64,000 nucleotides of DNA. Origin: Streptomyces sp. NBC_00582. Lineage in GTDB: Bacteria > Actinomycetota > Actinomycetes > Streptomycetales > Streptomycetaceae. The position numbers were made by a program, and so were the translations under genes. Below, one piece after another: positions 52,731 through 64,000 of the stretch. Where the stretch lies: NCBI RefSeq assembly GCF_036345155.1, contig NZ_CP107772.1, forward strand, positions 7,812,001 to 7,876,000, given 5' to 3'. Every line of letters begins with the position of its first letter. Within the stretch, counting starts at the first letter, position 1. Below the pieces are notes generated by a model. The model was not told the origin of the DNA, did not search any database, and saw nothing but the letters and a program-made list of their open reading frames with translations.

Positions 52731-53372
52731 ATGGCCGGCGCGATGCGCAAGATGGCGGTCTACCTCGGCCTCGTGGAGGACGATGGGTACGACGGCCGGG
52801 GATTCGACCCCGATGACGACTTCGAACCCGAGCTCGACCCGGAACCTGAGCGGGATCACCGGCGACACGAGCCGTCCCACCAGTCACACGGCGCACACCA
52901 GTCCCAAAGGGACGAAGAGGTGCGAATCGTGCAGCCGCCCGCTCCGCGCGAGCCGGTGGCCCGATCTTCTGCGCTCGCCGCGGAATCCGGGCGTCCGGCG
53001 CGCATCGCGCCCGTGGCATCCATCACACAAGAACGTCAGTCCCTGGAGAAGAACGCACCGGTGATCATGCCCAAGGTCGTGTCGGAACGAGAGCCGTACC
53101 GGATCACCACGCTCCACCCCCGGACCTACAACGAGGCCCGTACCATCGGGGAACACTTCCGTGAGGGCACCCCGGTGATCATGAATCTGACTGAGATGGA
53201 TGACACAGACGCGAAGCGACTTGTCGACTTTGCGGCCGGTTTGGTGTTTGGTCTTCACGGCAGCATCGAGCGGGTGACCCAGAAGGTGTTCCTGTTGTCT
53301 CCTGCTAACGTCGATGTCACGGCGGAGGACAAGGCCCGCATCGCAGAGGGCGGGTTCTTCAACCAGAGCTGA
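52731..53372 (+). CDS. sepF: Cell division protein SepF
   Basis: A 213-residue SepF. The N-terminal amphipathic helix ([14 protein letters not shown]) binds membrane; an acidic, then Arg/His/Gln-rich linker (~20-120) follows; the C-terminal SepF domain shows [58 protein letters not shown]. It anchors FtsZ to the membrane, replacing the absent FtsA. ATG 52731 follows GGAGG. Confidence 0.95.
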
Positions 53373-53411
53373 GACACAAGACCGGACACAGGGGAGAGGG
53401 AAGCACCGAAC

Positions 53412-53699
53412 ATGAGCGTGGTTCTGCAGGTGATCTACGTCGTGCTGATGGTCTTCCTGATCGTGCTCATCTTCCGATTGGTCATGGATTACGTCTTTCA
53501 GTTCGCCCGCTCATGGCAACCCGGCAAGGCGATGGTGGTCGTTCTCGAGGCCACCTACACTGTCACCGATCCACCGCTCAAGCTTCTGCGGCGAGTCATC
53601 CCGCCGTTGCGTCTCGGGGGCGTGGCACTCGACCTGTCCTTCTTCGTATTGATGATCATCGTCTACATCCTGATCACACTCACCCAGGCCGGGATGTGA
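53412..53699 (+). CDS. YggT/YlmG family membrane protein
   Basis: A 95-residue protein of the YggT/YlmG family. Two membrane segments (VIYVVLMVFLIVLIFRLVMDYVF and LDLSFFVLMIIVYILITLTQ) surround a loop containing TDPPLKLLRRVIPPLRLGG, the family motif. It is associated with division or nucleoid arrangement in other bacteria, but the mechanism is unknown. It is between sepF and divIVA, as usual. Confidence 0.92.
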   Translation: MSVVLQVIYVVLMVFLIVLIFRLVMDYVFQFARSWQPGKAMVVVLEATYTVTDPPLKLLRRVIPPLRLGGVALDLSFFVLMIIVYILITLTQAGM

Positions 53700-53754
53700 G
53701 CGATGTGAGAGATACGGTCCTGCCGAATGCCGACGACTACGTTGAGGTGAAGAG

Positions 53755-55047
53755 ATGCCGTTGACCCCCGAGGACGTGCGGAACAAGCAGTTCACGACCG
53801 TCCGCCTCCGAGAAGGCTATGACGAGGACGAGGTCGATGCCTTCCTCGACGAGGTCGAAGCCGAACTGACGCGCCTGCTCCGCGAGAACGAGGACCTGCG
53901 CGCCAAACTGGCCGCGGCCACGCGCGCTGCTGCCCAGAACCAGCAGAACATGCGCAAGCCTCCGGAGCCGCAGGACCAGCAGGGCGGCATGCCTCAGCAG
54001 GGCGGTATGCAGCAGGGCGGTATGCAGCAGGGCGGCATGCAGGGTGGGATGCCGCAGGGCGGTATGCCCCAGCAGGGGATGCCGCAGCAGGGAATGCCTC
54101 AGCAGGGCATGCCCCAGCAGGGGATGCGAGGCCCCGGCGCCCCGGTGCCCGCCGGCATATCGGGCCCGCCGCAGCAGCAGATGGGTGGCCCCATGGGTGG
54201 CCCGCCCCAGCTGCCGAGCGGTGCCCCGCAGCTGCCCGCCGGCCCCGGCGGTCAGGGTGGTCCGCAGGGTCCCGGCCCGATGGGCCAGGGTCCGATGGGG
54301 CAGGGCCCCATGGGCGGTCCCATGGGTGGTCAGCCCCCGATGCCGCAGCAGATGGGTGGCCCGATGGGCGGCCCCATGGGCGGTCCGATGGGCGGCCCCG
54401 GTCAGGGCCCCGGTGGCGACAGCGCCGCCCGTGTCCTCTCGCTGGCCCAGCAGACCGCCGACCAGGCGATCGCCGAGGCCCGCTCCGAGGCCAACAAGAT
54501 CGTCGGCGAGGCGCGTTCTCGTGCCGAGGGTCTCGAGCGTGACGCCCGTGCCAAGGCCGACGCCCTGGAGCGGGACGCGCAGGAGAAGCACCGCGTCGCG
54601 ATGGGCTCCCTGGAGTCCGCCCGCGCCACGCTGGAGCGCAAGGTCGAGGACCTGCGCGGCTTCGAGCGCGAGTACCGGACGCGTCTGAAGTCGTACCTCG
54701 AGTCCCAGCTGCGTCAGCTGGAGACCCAGGCCGACGACTCCCTCGCGCCGCCGCGCACTCCGGCCGCCGCGTCCCTGCCGCCGTCCCCGGCGCCCTCCAT
54801 GGCTCCGGCAGGCGCCAGCGCCCCGTCCTACGGCTCCGGTGCTCCCGGCATGGGCTCGGGGATGGGTTCGGGCATGGGCTCGGGCATGGGTGCGCCCAGC
54901 CCCGCCGCGCCGTCCTACGGCGGGCAGCAGCAGATGTCCCCGGCCATGACTCAGCCGATGGCGCCGGTACGTCCGCAGGGTCCCTCCCCGATGGGCCAGG
55001 CTCCCTCGCCGATGCGTGGCTTCCTCATCGACGAGGACGACAACTGA
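53755..55047 (+). CDS. divIVA: Polarity protein DivIVA (Wag31)
   Basis: A 430-residue coiled-coil protein marking hyphal tips and directing apical growth, essential in Streptomyces. The N-terminal membrane-binding DivIVA domain ([34 protein letters not shown]) is followed by a Met/Gln/Gly-rich insert (~75-210) of short repeats such as GGMPQQ, then the long second coiled coil ([38 protein letters not shown]) and a Ser/Pro/Gly/Met tail. Sites of AfsK phosphorylation lie in the C-terminal part of orthologues. It ends in a strong terminator. Confidence 0.97.
53984..54128 (+). repeat. Short in-frame repeats in divIVA
   Basis: Ten or so 15- to 24-bp units encoding [11 protein letters not shown] and QGMPQ in tandem. 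They keep the reading frame, so copy number can vary between strains without loss of function. Confidence 0.8.
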
Positions 55048-55082
55048 CGGCCAGTAGTACGCCTTAGGCGTCGGCAGCGTTC

Positions 55083-55125
55083 AAAGGGCGGGCCCCGGAT
55101 TCCGATCCGGGGTCCCGCCCTTTTT
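55083..55125 (+). terminator. Intrinsic terminator of divIVA
   Basis: AAAGGGCGGG + CCCCGGAT (55083-55100) pairs with ATCCGGGG + CCCGCCCTTT (55105-55123), interrupted by one bulged T, with a 4-nt loop and a run of five T. Confidence 0.92.
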
Positions 55126-55191
55126 ACGCGTGTTGACGACGGTGCAGGTGGGGACGGTGCAACAGGCGGTACGGCAGAAGAGGCGGTACGA

Positions 55192-55227
55192 CAAAGGGCC
55201 CGGTCTCCAGGAGACCGGGCCCTTGTG
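55192..55227 (-). terminator. Intrinsic terminator of ileS
   Basis: AAGGGCCCGGTCTCC (55194-55208) pairs with GGAGACCGGGCCCTT (55210-55224); on the minus strand it is followed by TTGTC. It lies just after the ileS stop. Confidence 0.85.
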
Positions 55228-55235
55228 TGCCGTCC

Positions 55236-58200
55236 TTACGCCTTGCGCAGGCGGAACGTCAGCGTCAGGCCGTCGTCGGTGAACGGGGTGCCGTACCTCT
55301 CATCGGCCTCGCCGAAGGCGAAGTCGGTCGCCAGGACCTCGTCGGCGATCAGCGCGGAGTGGGCGGTCAGCGCGTCCACGGCGGCCGGGTCGGTCGCGGT
55401 CCAGCGCAGCGCGATGCGGTCGGCCACGTCCAGGCCGCTGTTCTTGCGGGCCTCCTGGATCAGCCGGATCGCGTCACGGGCGAGGCCCGCACGGCGCAGC
55501 TCCTCGGTGATCTCCAGGTCCAGCGCGACCGTGGCACCGGAGTCGGAGGCGACCGACCAGCCCTCGCGCGGGGTCTCGGTGATGATGACCTCGTCGGGGG
55601 CGAGGGCGACCGTCTCACCGTCGACCTCGACCGACGCCGTGCCCTCGCGCAGGGCGAGGGACAGCGCGGCCGCGTCCGCGTTCGCGACGGCCTTGGCCAC
55701 GTCCTGGACCCGCTTGCCGAACCGCTTGCCGAGGGCCCGGAAGTTCGCCTTGGCCGTGGTGTCGACCAGCGACCCGCCCACCTCGGAGAGCGAGGCGAGG
55801 GACTCGACGTTCAGCTCCTCGGTGATCTGCGTGTGCAGTTCCGGGGAGAGCCCGTCGAACCCGGCCGCGGCGACCAGGGCGCGGCTCAGCGGCTGGCGGG
55901 TCTTGACGCCCGACTCCGCGCGCGTGGCGCGGCCCAGCTCCACCAGACGACGGACCAGGACCATCTGCCGGGACAGCTCCGGGTCGATCGCGGAGAGGTC
56001 CGCCTCGGGCCAGGACGCGAGGTGCACGGACTCCGGGGCGCCCGGGGTGACCGGCACGACCAGGTCCTGCCAGACCCGCTCGGTGATGAACGGGGTCAGC
56101 GGGGCCATCAGCTTGGTGACCGTCTCCACGACCTCGTGCAGCGTGCGCAGCGCGGCCTTGTCGCCCTGCCAGAAGCGGCGGCGCGAGCGGCGGACGTACC
56201 AGTTGGACAGGTCGTCGACGAACGCCGAGAGCAGCTTGCCGGCCCGCTGGGTGTCGTACGCCTCCAAGGACTGCGTCACCTGGTCGGTGAGCGCGTGCAG
56301 CTCGGAGAGCAGCCAGCGGTCCAGCAGCGGGCGCTCGGCCGGGGCCGGGTCGGCCTCGCTGGGCGCCCACGCGGACGTACGGGCGTACAGGGCCTGGAAG
56401 GCGACCGTGTTCCAGTACGTGAGGAGCGTCTTGCGGACGACCTCCTGGATGGTGCCGTGGCCCACGCGACGGGCGGCCCAGGGGGAGCCGCCGGCCGCCA
56501 TGAACCAGCGGACCGCGTCGGCGCCGTGCTGGTCCATGAGCGGGATCGGCTGCAGGATGTTGCCCAGGTGCTTGGACATCTTGCGGCCGTCCTCGGCGAG
56601 GATGTGGCCGAGGCAGACGACGTTCTCGTACGAGGACTTGTCGAAGACCAGCGTGCCGACGGCCATCAGCGTGTAGAACCAGCCGCGGGTCTGGTCGATG
56701 GCCTCGGAGATGAACTGCGCCGGGTAGCGGGACTCGAACAGGTCCTTGTTCTTGTACGGGTAGCCCCACTGCGCGAACGGCATCGAACCCGAGTCGTACC
56801 AGGCGTCGATGACCTCGGGCACGCGCGTGGCCGTCCGTGCGCAGCCCTCCTGGGGGCAGGCGAAGGTGACGTCGTCGATGAACGGGCGGTGCGGGTCCAG
56901 CTCGGACTGGTCGCGGCCGGTCAGCTCGGACAGCTCCGCGCGGGAGCCCGCACAGGTGAGGTGGTCGTCCTCGCAGCGCCAGATCGGCAGCGGGGTGCCC
57001 CAGTAGCGGCTGCGGGAGAGCGCCCAGTCGATGTTGTTGTTCAGCCAGTCGCCGAAGCGGCCGTGCTTGACGGTGTCCGGGAACCAGTTGGTCTTCTCGT
57101 TCTCCTGGAGGAGACGGTCCTTGACCGCGGTGGTGCGGATGTACCAGGACGGCTGCGCGTAGTAGAGAAGCGCGGTGTGGCAGCGCCAGCAGTGCGGGTA
57201 GCTGTGCTCGTACGGGATGTGCCGGAACAGGAGGCCGCGCTGCTGGAGGTCCTCGGTGAGCCGTTCGTCCGCCTTCTTGAAGAAGACGCCGCCGACCAGC
57301 GGCACGGACTCCTCGAAGGTGCCGTCCGGGCGGACCGGGTTGACCACGGGCAGGCCGTAGGAGCGGCAGACCTTGAGGTCGTCCTCACCGAAGGCGGGGG
57401 ACTGGTGGACCAGACCGGTGCCGTCCTCGGTGGTGACGTACTCGGCGTTGACGACGTAATGCGCCTCGGCCGGGAACTCCACGAGCTCGAACGGACGTTG
57501 ATAGGTCCAGCGCTCCATTTCGGCGCCGGTGAAGGTCTGGCCGGTGGTCTCCCAGCCCTCACCGAGCGCCTTGGCCACGAGCGGCTCGGCGACGACGAGC
57601 TTCTCCCGGCCGTCGGTCGCGACGACGTAGGTGACCTCCGGGTGCGCGGCCACGGCCGTGTTGGAGACCAGGGTCCAGGGGGTCGTCGTCCAGACCAGGA
57701 GCGCGGCCTGGCCGGCGAGCGGACCGGAGGTGAGCGGGAAACGGACGTACACGGACGGGTCGACGACCGTCTCGTAGCCCTGGGCCAGCTCGTGGTCGGA
57801 CAGGCCGGTGCCGCAGCGGGGGCACCAGGGGGCGACGCGGTGGTCCTGGACCAGCAGGCCCTTGGTGAAGATCTCCTTCAGCGACCACCAGACCGACTCG
57901 ATGTACTCGGGGTCCATCGTGACGTACGCGTCGTCGAGGTCGACCCAGTAGCCCATGCGGGTCGTCAGCTCGGAGAAGGCGTCGGTGTGGCGCAGCACGG
58001 ACTCGCGGCACCGGGCGTTGAACTCGGCGATGCCGTACGCCTCGATGTCCTTCTTGCCGCTGAAGCCGAGCTCCTTCTCCACCGCGAGCTCCACGGGGAG
58101 GCCGTGGCAGTCCCAGCCGGCCTTGCGGGCCACGTGGTAGCCGCGCATGGTGCGGAAGCGGGGGAAGACGTCCTTGAAGACGCGTGCCTCGATGTGGTGG

Positions 58201-58373
58201 GCGCCGGGCATGCCGTTCGCCGTGGGCGGGCCCTCGTAGAACACCCATTCGGGGCGGCCCTCGGACTGCTCCAGGCTCTTGGCAAAGATCTTCTGCTCGC
58301 GCCAGAAGTCGAGCACGGCGTGCTCGAGGGCGGGCAGGTCGACCTGGGCGGGCACCTGGCGGTACTGCGTCAT
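55236..58373 (-). CDS. ileS: Isoleucyl-tRNA synthetase, IleRS2 type with altered signature motif
   Basis: A 1045-residue class I synthetase charging tRNA-Ile. It is of the long, eukaryote-like type. Where class I enzymes have H-x-G-H after PPTANG, residues 57-60 read G-A-H-H; the second signature is KMSKH (GRKMSKHLGN). The editing domain (TTPWTLVSNTAVAAHPEV) and the C-terminal anticodon-binding part are complete. G-x-H-H variants of IleRS2 have been reported to give extreme mupirocin resistance. ATG 58373 is set by GGAGG inside a T-box leader that can mask it. The gene is convergent with divIVA. Confidence 0.95.
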   Translation of the reverse strand: MTQYRQVPAQVDLPALEHAVLDFWREQKIFAKSLEQSEGRPEWVFYEGPPTANGMPGAHHIEARVFKDVFPRFRTMRGYHVARKAGWDCHGLPVELAVEKELGFSGKKDIEAYGIAEFNARCRESVLRHTDAFSELTTRMGYWVDLDDAYVTMDPEYIESVWWSLKEIFTKGLLVQDHRVAPWCPRCGTGLSDHELAQGYETVVDPSVYVRFPLTSGPLAGQAALLVWTTTPWTLVSNTAVAAHPEVTYVVATDGREKLVVAEPLVAKALGEGWETTGQTFTGAEMERWTYQRPFELVEFPAEAHYVVNAEYVTTEDGTGLVHQSPAFGEDDLKVCRSYGLPVVNPVRPDGTFEESVPLVGGVFFKKADERLTEDLQQRGLLFRHIPYEHSYPHCWRCHTALLYYAQPSWYIRTTAVKDRLLQENEKTNWFPDTVKHGRFGDWLNNNIDWALSRSRYWGTPLPIWRCEDDHLTCAGSRAELSELTGRDQSELDPHRPFIDDVTFACPQEGCARTATRVPEVIDAWYDSGSMPFAQWGYPYKNKDLFESRYPAQFISEAIDQTRGWFYTLMAVGTLVFDKSSYENVVCLGHILAEDGRKMSKHLGNILQPIPLMDQHGADAVRWFMAAGGSPWAARRVGHGTIQEVVRKTLLTYWNTVAFQALYARTSAWAPSEADPAPAERPLLDRWLLSELHALTDQVTQSLEAYDTQRAGKLLSAFVDDLSNWYVRRSRRRFWQGDKAALRTLHEVVETVTKLMAPLTPFITERVWQDLVVPVTPGAPESVHLASWPEADLSAIDPELSRQMVLVRRLVELGRATRAESGVKTRQPLSRALVAAAGFDGLSPELHTQITEELNVESLASLSEVGGSLVDTTAKANFRALGKRFGKRVQDVAKAVANADAAALSLALREGTASVEVDGETVALAPDEVIITETPREGWSVASDSGATVALDLEITEELRRAGLARDAIRLIQEARKNSGLDVADRIALRWTATDPAAVDALTAHSALIADEVLATDFAFGEADERYGTPFTDDGLTLTFRLRKA

Positions 58374-58690
58374 CGATCTTCCTCCGGCGGACGTACTGCC
58401 TTCCGTCGGAGGGACGAGAGCCTTCTTGCCTGTCTACGCCGTCTTCGGCGCGCTCCCGCGGTACCACCCTCCTTGGCCCTCCGGTGCGGCCTGCGCTCCG
58501 GTGAGCCCCCTCATTGGGGTCGCGATGCCGGTTCTACTCGCCGCTGTGTCGGTGCTGCGGCTTTCTTCCGACGGCTCCGGGGTGATCTTCGCGTCGCGCT
58601 CGCCCCCGGGCTTCCACCGTCCCCGGGTCGCTCTGGGCTGCGTACGCCGCTACTCGTCCCCATCCATGCTTTTCGCTCCGCCCAGTGTAC
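58374..58690 (-). promoter_or_regulatory. T-box riboswitch leader of ileS
   Basis: Read on the minus strand, the T-box sequence AGGGTGGTACCGCG lies at 58457-58470, the site that contacts the 3' end of uncharged tRNA. An AUC triplet in GAAGATCACC near 58583 is the likely Ile specifier. Close to the start codon, CCTCCGACGG (58403-58412) can pair over 9 of 10 positions with CCGCCGGAGG (58381-58390), which includes the ribosome binding site, so control is probably translational. TACACT at 58684-58689 may be the -10. Confidence 0.9.
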
Positions 58691-58985
58691 GGCGCCGCAC
58701 GGACAGCGGCCGACCGGTTTTCGGGGTCCCCGGGGGCCGGGCGCGGGTCGGGGCGGGGTGACCCGAATGGTGGCCCCGCAGCGGGGTACGCGTGTGCGGG
58801 TCCCGGGGCGGTCGGCCGGGCGGATTACCAGCCGGGGAGCTGGGCACAACGCAGGCAGGCCGATCGCGTGGCGTGCGCGAGGCGGGCGATTCGGGCGGTG
58901 TGCCCCGTTGCCGCCGCTCTCAAGTCGATTTATCGTCCCAGCACGATTCGCGCGCAAGATCACAATATGTGAAGGGGCCGCGGCC
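58691..58985. other. Upstream region of the TraR/DksA-type gene
   Basis: About 295 bp between the ileS leader and the TraR/DksA start. A weak sigma-70-like pair TTGCCG (58908-58913), 17 bp, TATCGT (58931-58936) is present. The last 60 bp are AT-richer than their surroundings. Nothing else is recognisable. Confidence 0.4.
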
Positions 58986-60833
58986 ATGGTGGCGAAGAAG
59001 ACCGCCGTACAGCAGCCGACGACCGGCAGGTCAGCGAAAACCTCCGGCGGCGCGGCCGAGAGCACCCACGGCGGAAGGAGCACGCGAGGGCGGACGGCGG
59101 CGCCGAAGACGGCGGCCGGGAAGGCGGCCGTCGAGAAGACGGCTGGGGAGAAGACGGCCGGTCGGAAGGGGGTCGGCGGGAAGGCGGGCGGCGCGAGGAC
59201 GGCTGTCGCGGCGGAGGTGAAGGCGGCCGGGGCGCGGGTGGCCGGCGAGAAGGTGGCCGGCGAGAAGGCGGCCGGGTCGAAGTCGGCCGGGGAGCACAGC
59301 CCTGCCAAGAAGGCCACGGGGGAAATGGCGGTGGGCAGGAAGACCGTCGCCAGGAAGGCGGCCGGTAAGAAGCCCGCCGGTACGCCGGCTGCCGATGAGA
59401 GACCCACTGGTGAGAAGCGCGCCGGCGGGAGGCCCACGGATGTGAGGACTGCTGATGAGAAGCCCGCCCGTGGAACGGCAACCGTTGGGAAAGACGCCGG
59501 TGAGGAGTCTGCCGGTGGAGCTGGCGCGGGTGGGAAGGCTGCCGGTGGGAAACCTGGCGGTGGGACGGGTGCGGGTGGGGAAGCCGCTGGTGGGAAGTCT
59601 GGCGGTGGAGCTGGCGCGGGTGGGAAACCTGGCGGTGGGACGGGTGCGGGTGGGGAAGCCGCTGGTGGGAAGTCTGGCGGTGGAGCTGGCGCGGGTGGGA
59701 AGTCTGGCGGTGGGGAGGGTAAGGGTGGGAAGGCTGCTGGTGAGACGCCTGGCGGTGGGACGGGTGCGGGTGGGGAAGCCGCTGGTGGGAAGTCTGGCGG
59801 TGGAGCTGGCGCGGGTGGGAAGTCTGGCGGTGGGGAGGGTAAGGGTGGGAAGGCTGCTGGTGAGACGCCTGGCGGTGGGACGGGTAGGGGTGGGAAGGCT
59901 GCCGATGGGAAGTCTGCCGGTGGGACGGGTGGTGCGGGTGGGAAGGCTGCCGGTGGGAAGGCCGGCGGTGGGACGGGTGGTGCGGGTGGGAAGGCTGCCG
60001 GTGGGAAGGCCGGTGGTGGGACGCGCGCGGGTGGGAAAGCTGCCGGGGAGGAGTCTGGCGGTGGTGGGAAGACCGCCGTCGAGAAGACCCCCGCTGTGAA
60101 GGAAGCCGTCGAGGAGGTGGCCGTCGGGGTGGGGGGCGGGGCCTCCGTGGCGGCCAAGAAAGCGGCCGGGAGGAAGACGGCCGCTCCCAGGGCGGCTGCC
60201 AAGAAGGCGGCCGGACGGAAGGCAGCCCCCCGTAAGGCGGCTGTCGTCGGCAAGGCCGCGGACGCCGAGGGCGTGGCCGCGGCGGGTGCGGGAAAGAAGA
60301 GCACGGCCAAGAAGGTGGGCGCGGCCACGGCCGCGGAGCAGACGGGAGCCACGACAGTGGTTGCGAAGAAGACTCCTGGCACGGCCACGGCGGCGAAGAC
60401 GGCCGTTCCCAAGGCACGCCTCGCCGCGGTGGAACCGGGCGAGCTGGCGGTGCGCCCCGGAGAAGAGCCCTGGACCGCGGAGGAGGTCGAGGAGGCGCGC
60501 GCCGAGCTGGAGTCCGAGCAGGAGCGGCTGCACACCGAGCTCGCCTCCTCGGAGACGGCCCTTGCGGGCCTGATGCGGGACTCCGGGGACGGCGCCGGCG
60601 ACGACCAGGCGGACACCGGCACCAAGAACATCACGCGCGAGCACGAACTGGCCCTGGCCGCCAACGCGCGCGAGATGCTGATCCAGACCGAGCACGCCCT
60701 GGAACGGCTGGACGCCGGCACGTACGGCCTGTGCGAGAACTGCGGCAAACCCATCGGCAAGGCCCGTATGCAGGCCTTCCCACGGGCCACGCTGTGCGTC
60801 GAGTGCAAGCAGAAACAAGAGCGCCGGTACTGA
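58986..60833 (+). CDS. TraR/DksA zinc-finger protein with long Lys/Ala/Gly repeat region
   Basis: A 615-residue protein. Its last ~120 residues form a TraR/DksA C4 zinc-finger protein: a coiled coil (TAEEVEEARAELESEQERLHTELASSE), then LERLDAGTYGLCENCGKPIGKARMQAFPRATLCVECKQKQERRY with four Cys. The N-terminal ~490 residues are low-complexity: Lys/Ala-rich like histone H1 (AAPRAAAKKAAGRKAAP), with a Gly-rich block (~190-365) built from units such as GGKSGGGAGAGG. That block contains an exact 120-bp tandem duplication. ATG 58986 follows AAGGGG. The Lys/Ala part could bind DNA; the role of the Gly block is unknown. Confidence 0.85.
   Translation: MVAKKTAVQQPTTGRSAKTSGGAAESTHGGRSTRGRTAAPKTAAGKAAVEKTAGEKTAGRKGVGGKAGGARTAVAAEVKAAGARVAGEKVAGEKAAGSKSAGEHSPAKKATGEMAVGRKTVARKAAGKKPAGTPAADERPTGEKRAGGRPTDVRTADEKPARGTATVGKDAGEESAGGAGAGGKAAGGKPGGGTGAGGEAAGGKSGGGAGAGGKPGGGTGAGGEAAGGKSGGGAGAGGKSGGGEGKGGKAAGETPGGGTGAGGEAAGGKSGGGAGAGGKSGGGEGKGGKAAGETPGGGTGRGGKAADGKSAGGTGGAGGKAAGGKAGGGTGGAGGKAAGGKAGGGTRAGGKAAGEESGGGGKTAVEKTPAVKEAVEEVAVGVGGGASVAAKKAAGRKTAAPRAAAKKAAGRKAAPRKAAVVGKAADAEGVAAAGAGKKSTAKKVGAATAAEQTGATTVVAKKTPGTATAAKTAVPKARLAAVEPGELAVRPGEEPWTAEEVEEARAELESEQERLHTELASSETALAGLMRDSGDGAGDDQADTGTKNITREHELALAANAREMLIQTEHALERLDAGTYGLCENCGKPIGKARMQAFPRATLCVECKQKQERRY
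59566..59880 (+). repeat. Exact tandem duplications in the TraR/DksA-type gene
   Basis: Bases 59641-59760 and 59761-59880 are identical, a perfect 120-bp tandem duplication (40 codons). The first 60 bases of that unit occur a third time without change at 59566-59625. The strand is G-rich (GGTGGG and GGCGGTGG runs). Perfect identity shows recent slippage or unequal recombination, or, less likely, an assembly effect. Confidence 0.92.
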
Positions 60834-60900
60834 TCGCGTGCCTGTGCGGGGGCGTGTCGTACCCTCGTCCTCAGTCAGGTACCTAGGTTGAGGGACTCAC

Positions 60901-61509
60901 GTGGCAGAGGCGGAGCGCATCATCGGTACGCCGGACATCCCAGAGGCGGCGGGAGCCGAGCCGGAGCAGTCGACCGGCCCGGGCCTCCCGGACGGGCAGG
61001 AGAGCACCGAGGCGCGGCCCAGGGGCAAGCGCCGGATCGCCGTGCTCTTCGCCGTCGCCACGTTCGCGTACGCGATCGACCTGGTCAGCAAGATGATCGT
61101 GGTCGCCCGGCTGGAGCACCACGCGCCGATCGAGATCGTCGGGGACTGGCTCAGGTTCGAGGCCATCCGCAACGCGGGCGCGGCCTTCGGCTTCGGCGAG
61201 GCCTTCACGATCATCTTCACGGTCATCGCGACGGCGGTGATCGTGGTGATCGCCCGGCTCGCCCGCAAGCTGTACAGCCTGCCCTGGGCGATCGCGCTGG
61301 GCCTGCTGCTGGGCGGCGCGCTGGGCAACCTCACCGACCGGATCTTCCGCTCGCCCGGCGTGTTCGAGGGCGCGGTCGTCGACTTCATCGCGCCGAAGCA
61401 CTTCGCGGTCTTCAACCTCGCCGACTCGGCGATCGTGTGCGGCGGCATCCTGATCGTGCTGCTGTCCTTCAAGGGGCTGGACCCGGACGGGACCGTCCAC
61501 AAGGACTGA
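60901..61509 (+). CDS. lspA: Lipoprotein signal peptidase
   Basis: A 202-residue membrane aspartic protease that cuts prolipoproteins. Four membrane helices follow a ~45-residue acidic, Pro-rich cytoplasmic N-terminus longer than in E. coli. The conserved residues are visible in [23 protein letters not shown] (first catalytic Asp) and VFNLADSAI (second Asp). The start is GTG 60901; GTACCTAGGTTG just upstream may contain the -10. Confidence 0.93.
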
Positions 61510-61585
61510 GCCCGCCCCCGGGGGTCGTCCGAGGTTGTCCACAGGCCCGTACGGGGCGGTCGGAGCCGTCCGGCATACTCGACGG

Positions 61586-62530
61586 GTGAGCACGATTCCC
61601 GAGATCCGTACCCTGCCCGTGCCGGACGGCCTGGAGGGCGAGCGCGTCGACGCCGCCATCTCCCGCATGTTCGGCTTCTCCCGCACGAAGGCCGCGGAGC
61701 TCGCCGCGGCGGGGAAGGTCTCGGTCGACGGCTCGGTGGTCGGCAAGTCCGAGCGGGTGCACGGCGGGGCCTGGCTCGAGGTCGAGATGCCCCAGGCGCC
61801 CGCGCCGGTGCAGATCGTCGCGGAGCCCGTCGAGGGCATGGAGATCGTGCACGACGACGACGACGTCGTCGTGATCGTCAAGCCGGTGGGCGTGGCCGCG
61901 CACCCGTCGCCCGGCTGGAGCGGCCCCACCGTGATCGGCGGGCTGGCCGCCGCCGGCTACCGGATCTCCACCTCCGGCGCCGCCGAGCGCCAGGGCATCG
62001 TGCACCGCCTCGACGTGGGGACGTCCGGCCTGATGGTGGTCGCCAAGTCCGAGCGGGCGTACACCTCGCTCAAGCGCCAGTTCAAGGAGCGCACGGTCGA
62101 CAAGCGCTACCACACGCTCGTCCAGGGCCACCCGGACCCGACCAGCGGCACCATCGACGCGCCCATCGGCCGGCACCCGCACCACGACTACAAGTGGGCG
62201 GTCACCGCCGAAGGCAAGCCCTCCGTCACGCACTACGACCTGATCGAGGCCTTCCGCGCGGCCTCCCTGCTGGACGTGAAGCTGGAGACCGGCCGCACCC
62301 ACCAGATCCGGGTGCACATGTCCGCCCACCGCCACCCCTGCGTCGGCGACCTGACGTACGGCGCCGACCCGACGCTCGCCAAGCGGCTGCGGCTGACCCG
62401 TCAGTGGCTGCACGCCGTACGGCTGGGCTTCGAGCACCCCGGTGACGGGCAGTGGGTGGAGTTCGCCAGCGACTACCCGGCCGACCTGCAGAAGGCCCTG
62501 GACCGGGTCCGCGAGGAGACCTACGGATGA
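61586..62530 (+). CDS. rluD: RluA/RluD family rRNA pseudouridine synthase
   Basis: A 314-residue pseudouridine synthase with an N-terminal S4 RNA-binding domain ([31 protein letters not shown]) and the catalytic core with the Asp in [16 protein letters not shown], followed by [10 protein letters not shown] and [21 protein letters not shown]. It probably modifies 23S rRNA helix 69 like RluD. GTG 61586 has no clear ribosome binding site; CATACT 7 bp upstream suggests a leaderless message. Its stop overlaps the GNAT gene start (ATGA). Confidence 0.9.
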
Positions 62531-63000
62531 GCGGCACGCCCGCGTACACGGTGCGCGTCGCCGAGGACCCGGCCGACCTGGAGGCGTGCTTCGCGGTGCG
62601 CAAGGAGGTCTTCGTCGGCGAGCAGGGCGTCCCGGAGGACCTGGAGTACGACGAGCACGACGCGGGTGCCGCGCATGTGCTGGCGGTCCGTGAGGACGGC
62701 GTACCGCTCGGGACGGGGCGGCTGCTGTTCGGCGCGGCCGCAGCGGGGCGCACCGGCGGCGACCCCGCGGTCGGCTCCCTCGGGCGGCTGGCCGTGGCCC
62801 GGGAGGCGCGGGGGCTCGGTGTCGGGGTGGCGCTCGTGCGGGCCATCGAGGAGGCGGCCCGCGCGCGGGGGTTGACGGCCGTCGACCTGCACGCGCAGAC
62901 CCAGGCCCTGGGTTTCTACGAACGGCTGGGGTACACGGCGTACGGCGCCGAGGAGCTGGAGGCGGGGATTCCGCACCGGTCCATGCGGCGTTCTCTCTAG
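62527..63000 (+). CDS. GNAT family N-acetyltransferase
   Basis: A 157-residue GNAT acetyltransferase of the ElaA-like / YjcF kind. The start [24 protein letters not shown] and the acetyl-CoA loop [29 protein letters not shown] are characteristic, and [11 protein letters not shown] closes the fold. The amine substrate is unknown. ATG 62527 overlaps the rluD stop by 4 bp. Confidence 0.9.
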
Positions 63001-63033
63001 CGACCGGTGGTGCGTGCGACGCTGGAGGTCGGG

Positions 63034-64000
63034 ATGCCCTTGATCGTCCAGTCGTCCGGAGCGCCGCCCGTGGATCAGTTGGCCCTGCTGTTCGTCCTGT
63101 TGCTCGGGGCCGTGGTGAGCGTCCCGGTCGGAGACCGGTTCGGGTTGCCCTCGCCGGTGCTGATGACCCTGCTCGGAATCGTCCTCGCGGTCGCCGACTT
63201 CGTGCCGAACGTCGACGTCCCGCCGGACCTGATCCTGCCCCTGGTGCTGCCGCCGCTGCTCTACGCGGCCGTACGGCGCACCTCGTGGCGGCAGTTCGCC
63301 GCCAACAAGCGGCCCATCTTCCTGCTCGCCGTGGCGCTGGTGTTCGTCACCACGGTCTGTGTGGCCGCCGTGGCCCACTCGGTGATCCCCGGGCTGCCGG
63401 TCGCCGCCGCCGTCGCGCTGGGAGCCCTCGTCGCGCCGCCCGACCCGGTGGCCGCGACCGCCGTCGCCGGACAGCTCGGGCTGCCGCGCCGGCTCGTCTC
63501 CATCCTGGAGGGCGAGGGCCTGTTCAACGACGTGACGGCCATCGTGCTCTACCACGTGGCGATCGCGGCCGCCGTCAGCGGGGAGTTCGTGCCCGGTGAG
63601 GCGGCCCTGGAGCTGGTGCTGTCCGCCGTGGTCGCGGTCGCCGTGGGCGTCGGGCTCGGCTGGGGCGCCAACCGTCTGCTCGACCTGCTCGGCGACGCGA
63701 CCCTGCAGATCGGGCTTACCCTGCTCGTGCCGTACGCCGCCTATGTGCTCGCCGAGGAACTGCACGGCTCCGGTGTGCTCGCGGTGCTGACCTGCGCGCT
63801 GTTCCTCGCGGAGTACGCCACCGACCCCGACGACGTGCTGACGCGGCTCGCCGGGCACGCCTTCTGGGACATCGTCGACACGCTGGTGACCGGCGTGGCG
63901 TTCGGGCTCATCGGGCTCGAACTGCACAACGCGATCCGTACGGCGTCCGGGCGCTGGGGCGAGATGCTCGGCTGGGCCGGGATCATCGCGGCCGTGGTGA
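63034..64000 (+). CDS. Na+/H+ antiporter, CPA1 family (5' part only)
   Basis: The first ~322 residues of a CPA1-type cation/proton antiporter; the gene runs off the window. About nine membrane segments are visible. The functional motifs are LGALVAPPDPVAATAVAGQLGLPRRLVSILEGEGLFNDVTAIVL, containing the conserved Asp-Pro and the Asn-Asp pair of the ion site. It exports Na+ (or K+) in exchange for protons. ATG 63034 is set by GGAGG at 63023-63027. Confidence 0.88.
   Translation, partial: MPLIVQSSGAPPVDQLALLFVLLLGAVVSVPVGDRFGLPSPVLMTLLGIVLAVADFVPNVDVPPDLILPLVLPPLLYAAVRRTSWRQFAANKRPIFLLAVALVFVTTVCVAAVAHSVIPGLPVAAAVALGALVAPPDPVAATAVAGQLGLPRRLVSILEGEGLFNDVTAIVLYHVAIAAAVSGEFVPGEAALELVLSAVVAVAVGVGLGWGANRLLDLLGDATLQIGLTLLVPYAAYVLAEELHGSGVLAVLTCALFLAEYATDPDDVLTRLAGHAFWDIVDTLVTGVAFGLIGLELHNAIRTASGRWGEMLGWAGIIAAVV

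Follow-up and report, generated by a model that had tools for sequence, protein, structure and literature searches.

The only full isoleucyl-tRNA synthetase (IleRS) gene found in the Streptomyces sp. NBC_00582 assembly encodes an IleRS2 that reads G-A-H-H where the class I signature H-x-G-H is expected. We are highly confident that this enzyme is the housekeeping IleRS2 of a Streptomyces and belongs to the published 'hyper-resistant' G/AxHH type; earlier work has already described the motif, its presence in the genus and its link to mupirocin tolerance.

The ileS locus

The features below lie in the window, by which we mean the whole 64,000-nucleotide stretch analysed.

55236..58373, minus strand: ileS, encoding an IleRS2 of 1045 amino acids (translation, TIGR00392, Pfam; the sole IleRS found in the genome)
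58205..58194, minus strand: swapped class I signature G-A-H-H, residues 57-60 (alignment and translation)
58182..58184, minus strand: Arg64, at +7 from motif position 1 (Arg in all 95 tree rows whose motif has a third-position His)
56582..56568, minus strand: second signature K-M-S-K-H, residues 598-602 (translation and alignment)
58675..58569, minus strand: probable T-box leader of ileS, tRNA-sensing (RF00230, below gathering score)
53755..55047, plus strand: DivIVA-like gene, a conserved neighbour and synteny marker (provisional name, from the sequence)
58986..60833, plus strand: TraR/DksA-like gene, a conserved neighbour (provisional name, probable start)
60901..62530, plus strand: lspA- and rluD-like genes, also conserved neighbours (provisional names, from the sequence)

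We take the neighbour of ileS on one side to be a DivIVA-like gene; on the other side we recognise a TraR/DksA-like gene and, beyond it, genes resembling lspA and rluD. The TraR/DksA-like gene (58986-60833) encodes a very long, repetitive N-terminal part rich in Lys, Ala and Gly. IleS scored 901.1 bits against TIGR00392 over residues 7-835 (curated cut-off 621.4) and contains the Pfam domains PF00133 (tRNA-synt_1), PF08264 (Anticodon_1) and PF19302 (DUF5915). A 1.2-kb search gave an RF00230 match at 58675..58569 (43.7 bits, E = 4.6e-8); because this score lies below the gathering threshold of 93, we grade the T-box leader upstream of ileS only as probable. Rfam at gathering threshold returned no match in 53000-64000. 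By our own reading, the T-box specifier would be AUC (Ile).

A swapped signature in an IleRS2

The first-pass annotation of this DNA had placed G-A-H-H at IleS residues 57-60 (58194..58205), in a column where HxGH is expected, and had proposed an alignment to characterised IleRS enzymes as a check. Translation and alignment bore this out. Solved IleRS chains aligned pairwise to window IleS with zero gaps through the first motif: ..NGLPHVGH.. of 1ile and 8c8v and ..NGLPGVHH.. of 8c8w fell on ..NGMPGAHH.., placing GAHH in the column of HVGH in 1ile and 8c8v and of GVHH in 8c8w, with no canonical H-x-G-H at the active-site motif. Because these three chains (1ile, 8c8v and 8c8w) align without a gap, a canonical H-x-G-H concealed nearby is ruled out. 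GAHH together with KMSKH was present in 121/121 proteins (window IleS and the 120 best of 7,999 scored homologues) and in all 56 same-genus genomes whose housekeeping ileS gene was read, so GAHH is neither chance nor a sequencing error. Against such identity and the gap-free alignments, it is hardly conceivable that the motif was misread, whether through a canonical H-x-G-H elsewhere or an error in the sequence.

The protein is an IleRS2, because it lacks the C-terminal Cys4 cluster and the Tyr and NK signatures of IleRS1 and lies apart from IleRS1 in the tree. The Cys4 zinc cluster (CxxC..CxxC) was absent from window IleS and from all 131 non-IleRS1 tree rows and present in 20/20 IleRS1 rows. 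Of the three published IleRS1 signatures (the Tyr of PPYANG, NK after the motif, and SSL), we compared the first two, and window IleS has PPTANG and Ala63-Arg64 in their place. The columns that probably correspond to Asn70 and Phe586 of PmIleRS1 read Ala63 and His590 (among IleRS1 rows, Asn in 20/20 and Phe in 19/20). The 20 IleRS1 rows formed one group apart in the tree (SH-aLRT 100). The HYPFE motif, an element cited for the eukaryote-like IleRS group in the available part of PMC4861432, was seen in HYGH-type rows and, within the swapped clade, in L041 and L142; window IleS reads GYPYK there.

GAHH has the Gly (or Ala) at position 1 and the His at position 3 that define G/AxHH. Its second residue is Ala, and the published list in the Fig. 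1 legend of PMC10485003, in the portion available and perhaps not exhaustive, gives Ile, Val, Leu, Met and Tyr at this place. Among the 91 main-clade rows of our tree, Thr (36) and Ala (17) were commonest, followed by Val (16), Ile (10) and others.

By sequence, the closest solved chains, at 891-905 bits, were those of Priestia megaterium IleRS2 (8c8u, 8c8v and, probably, 8c8w and 8c9d) and Thermus IleRS (1ile). The natural motif of both enzymes is HVGH and 8c8w reads GVHH, compared with GAHH in the window. MupA and MupB, which are IleRS2-like, matched window IleS at 774.8 and 746.8 bits, far below the curated cut-offs of 1900, and membership in either family was rejected.

A sole copy, typical of its genus

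Searches covering the entire assembly (11.1 Mb, two contigs), one at the protein level and one with the TIGR00392 family, each found one full IleRS and no second; the remaining matches were pieces far below cut-off, which were taken for ValRS and other class I synthetases. The first-pass annotation had predicted an unusually mupirocin-insensitive sole IleRS, provided that no second ileS existed elsewhere. 'Sole' stood, whereas 'unusual' did not, as GAHH was present in 56/56 genomes read from the genus. The nearest homologues of window IleS are likewise named from Streptomyces. GAHH is the normal form in Streptomyces, and the strain is typical in that respect. The best IleRS E-value was 0 in 198 of the 199 same-genus genomes searched; in the other, G079 (one contig, 78% complete), no IleRS match rose above ValRS level.

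Extra copies do occur in the genus. We sought them in 21 of the 199 same-genus genomes (20 with more than four matches, plus G079) and found a second, HYGH-type IleRS in two, G175 and G038. The extra copy of G175 (L173, L220, L222) reads HYGH/AMSKA and is flanked on one side by AMP-binding, GNAT and methyltransferase genes and on the other by genes of the pentose-phosphate pathway. Its motifs are those given for SbzA (HYGH and AMSKA; PMC12945691, as available), and the copy is of SbzA type, in a setting resembling the published sbz cluster (the SB-203208 cluster; PMC6331615, as available). The extra copy of G038 (L172, L219, L221) reads HYGH/KMSKS, lies about 4 kb from NRPS genes and is a possible self-resistance gene. 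A further genome, G152, has two equal-scoring IleRS copies, on contigs C71 and C72.

These copies lend substance to the thought that the window protein could itself belong to a gene cluster and serve biosynthesis or self-resistance, either as an SbzA-like enzyme or as an extra IleRS. However, the window gene is the sole IleRS found in its genome, is flanked by DivIVA and DksA-LspA-RluD, both conserved, and has a probable T-box leader, and we give that possibility next to no weight. Single copy and conserved neighbours together rule out an SbzA-like role: SbzA shares the IleRS fold, but has HYGH and AMSKA and, in the available parts of PMC6331615 and PMC12945691, is described in biosynthetic isoleucyl transfer.

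Published mupirocin data and a proposed mechanism

The first-pass annotation had linked a swapped GxHH in some IleRS2 enzymes to extreme mupirocin resistance, in agreement with what is available of PMC10485003 and PMC4861432. The former associates G/AxHH with a mupirocin Ki in the millimolar range and lists S. griseus IleRS2 among its carriers; in the text available, its authors found G/AxHH in no IleRS1. The latter, in its available part, gives 10 mM as the mupirocin Ki of S. griseus IleRS. This enzyme (SgIleRS) is among the closest described systems, being of the same genus and IleRS2 type and with the swapped motif, likened here from the available published description (PMC4861432, PMC10485003); the 10 mM value belongs to SgIleRS and not to the window enzyme. 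The IleRS2 of Deinococcus radiodurans also has the swapped motif, but as ALHH, with Ala at position 1, and in another lineage (PMC10485003, as available).

For other IleRS2 enzymes, the accessible text of PMC10485003 describes shifts in Ki that reach roughly 10^3-fold when the motif is exchanged. For DrIleRS2 (ALHH), the Ki of 6.6 mM fell 823-fold on change to HVGH; the reverse change in TtIleRS2 and PmIleRS2 raised Ki about 200-fold or more, at a cost in KM and kcat of up to 10-fold. The same source reports structures suggesting that catalysis relies on the third-position His in place of the first, and modelling in which this third His clashes with mupirocin.

By analogy with these relatives, we infer a mechanism and a millimolar Ki for the window enzyme. 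In the published account the motif helix is shifted in IleRS2, and for this reason the third-position His can do in catalysis what the first His does in H-x-G-H. It would also collide with mupirocin and thereby raise Ki to the millimolar range. If the window enzyme behaves like S. griseus IleRS, the strain should withstand very high mupirocin as far as this enzyme is concerned.

Distribution of the swapped motif in the phylum

We placed 151 rows, from 202 IleRS sequences of one phylum, in a quick tree with SH-aLRT support only; 43 Streptomyces near-copies and L136, L174, L175, L193, L195, L202, L218 and L220 were left out. The rows comprised a main swapped clade of 91 (90 GxHH and one GVHN), an HYGH clade of 36 (35 HYGH and one HFGN), 20 IleRS1 (11 HxGH and 9 HxGT) and a Gaiella-type clade of four (two GVHH and two AVHT). 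With ten rows lacking the PPxANG string excluded from the count, a single branch set each of the labels GxHH, HYGH and IleRS1 apart from the rest (SH-aLRT 99, 100 and 100). Alignment assigned these ten afterwards: the main clade received four (GxHH in three and GVHN in one), the HYGH clade two (HYGH, HFGN) and the Gaiella type four.

The first-pass annotation was correct in calling KMSKH non-standard, yet a fifth-place His is common within the swapped clade: the fifth residue of KMSKx was His in 53 of the 91 rows, Ser in 32, Arg in five and Asn in one. Because Ser stands there in 32/91 rows, KMSKH is not obligatory for the swap, and we rejected it as a necessary partner. Inside the GxHH clade, L144 (G233) combines GVHN with KMSKH, so the fourth motif position is also variable. 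Nine of the 20 IleRS1 rows (L197, L200, L201, L203, L205-L208 and L211), and also the fragment L218 (HVGT), read HxGT; in contrast, the available text of PMC10485003 describes H-x-G-H in all of its IleRS1.

The swap may be the deep lineage state of one IleRS2 branch, with mupirocin insensitivity as a by-product rather than the motif's reason, a reading to which we assign somewhat less than an even chance. The 91-row clade takes in numerous families, both within the class to which the window belongs and beyond it, and two genera changed state by whole-gene replacement rather than by motif editing (see below). However, the wider tree of PMC10485003 (as available) points to two or more gains of the swapped motif and to a single reversion. 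With the four Gaiella-type rows, a sister clade, included, two separate parts of our tree have a third-position His; this is in line with the two published acquisitions and leaves a single origin unproven.

Gene replacement in place and Arg64

Two genera contained both motif states. In genus g9, G522 and G659 read GTHH versus HYGH in G405 and G531; in genus g260, G650 reads GTHH versus HYGH in G708. We read gene order at these six ileS loci (L223-L228), a set that is separate from two further GTHH genomes of g9 (G641 and G668), and all six lie between DivIVA and DksA-LspA-RluD. In the RluD tree the six loci clustered according to genus (100/99 for both genera), and in the ileS tree according to motif. 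Because the locus is shared while RluD follows genus and ileS follows motif, the motif state in g9 and g260 was changed by whole-gene replacement in place. The ileS of G708 is in the opposite orientation, which suggests a separate replacement event. An HYGH-type query from g9 gave mostly Nocardioides, suggesting that f7, the family of both genera, is Nocardioidaceae.

Position 64 followed these groups. It is Arg in 91/91 main-clade and 4/4 Gaiella-type rows, Gly or Ser in 36/36 HYGH-clade rows and Lys in 20/20 IleRS1 rows. Arg is also found there in 1ile (Thermus) and 8c8v (P. megaterium IleRS2), chains of the two enzymes with a canonical motif that tolerated the laboratory swap. Arg64 may thus support the swapped motif, a lead and not proof, with relatedness of the rows as a confounder.

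Gaiella-type IleRS

The Gaiella-type enzyme was the only IleRS found in G307 (L194) and G368 (L192). A protein named from Gaiella occulta has the same sequence as L194, and the G307 enzyme scored 620.0 bits, just under the TIGR00392 cut-off of 621.4. We counted motif residues in the best 120 of 7,999 scored homologues (P0122-P0241). Position 1 was Ala in 90, Gly in 26 and Pro in four; position 3 was His and position 4 Thr in all 120; and the second motif was EMHGS in 103 and EMHSS in 17, with KMSK in none of these 120. A further full-length member outside the tree, L202 (G370), reads GVHT and EMHGS with Arg at +7. The sister rows L190 (G300) and L196 (G399) have GVHH with EMHYS or PMHKS instead of KMSKS. 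Our search of an open-licence literature library found no description of an IleRS with MHxS for KMSKS, or of a Gaiella IleRS.

A core column scan identified 12 columns in which Lys or Arg is nearly fixed in the Gaiella type and rare elsewhere. Two adjoin the motifs, at window positions His590 (Lys in 120) and Gly54 (Lys in 103, Arg in 17); in the four Gaiella-type tree rows the gains are incomplete, with Lys at 590 in three and at 54 in two. Judging by sequence, the gained Lys/Arg residues may lie in the active site.

Tentatively, these patterns would fit a position-3 His that is an old IleRS2 catalytic arrangement, enabled by the +7 Arg and not primarily an adaptation to mupirocin. The Gaiella type would then have gone further, with both KMSKS lysines gone and Lys/Arg gained beside the motifs; we regard this combined proposal as rather unlikely. 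As to what lets the swapped motif work in IleRS2, no simple mechanism emerged in the available text of PMC10485003, and the Arg64 pattern is a candidate answer to that question. Genera with GTHH and HYGH at one locus offer a natural comparison of motif versus antibiotic pressure. If the gained residues of the Gaiella type perform the catalytic function, both class I signatures would be replaceable by relocated residues in an essential enzyme.
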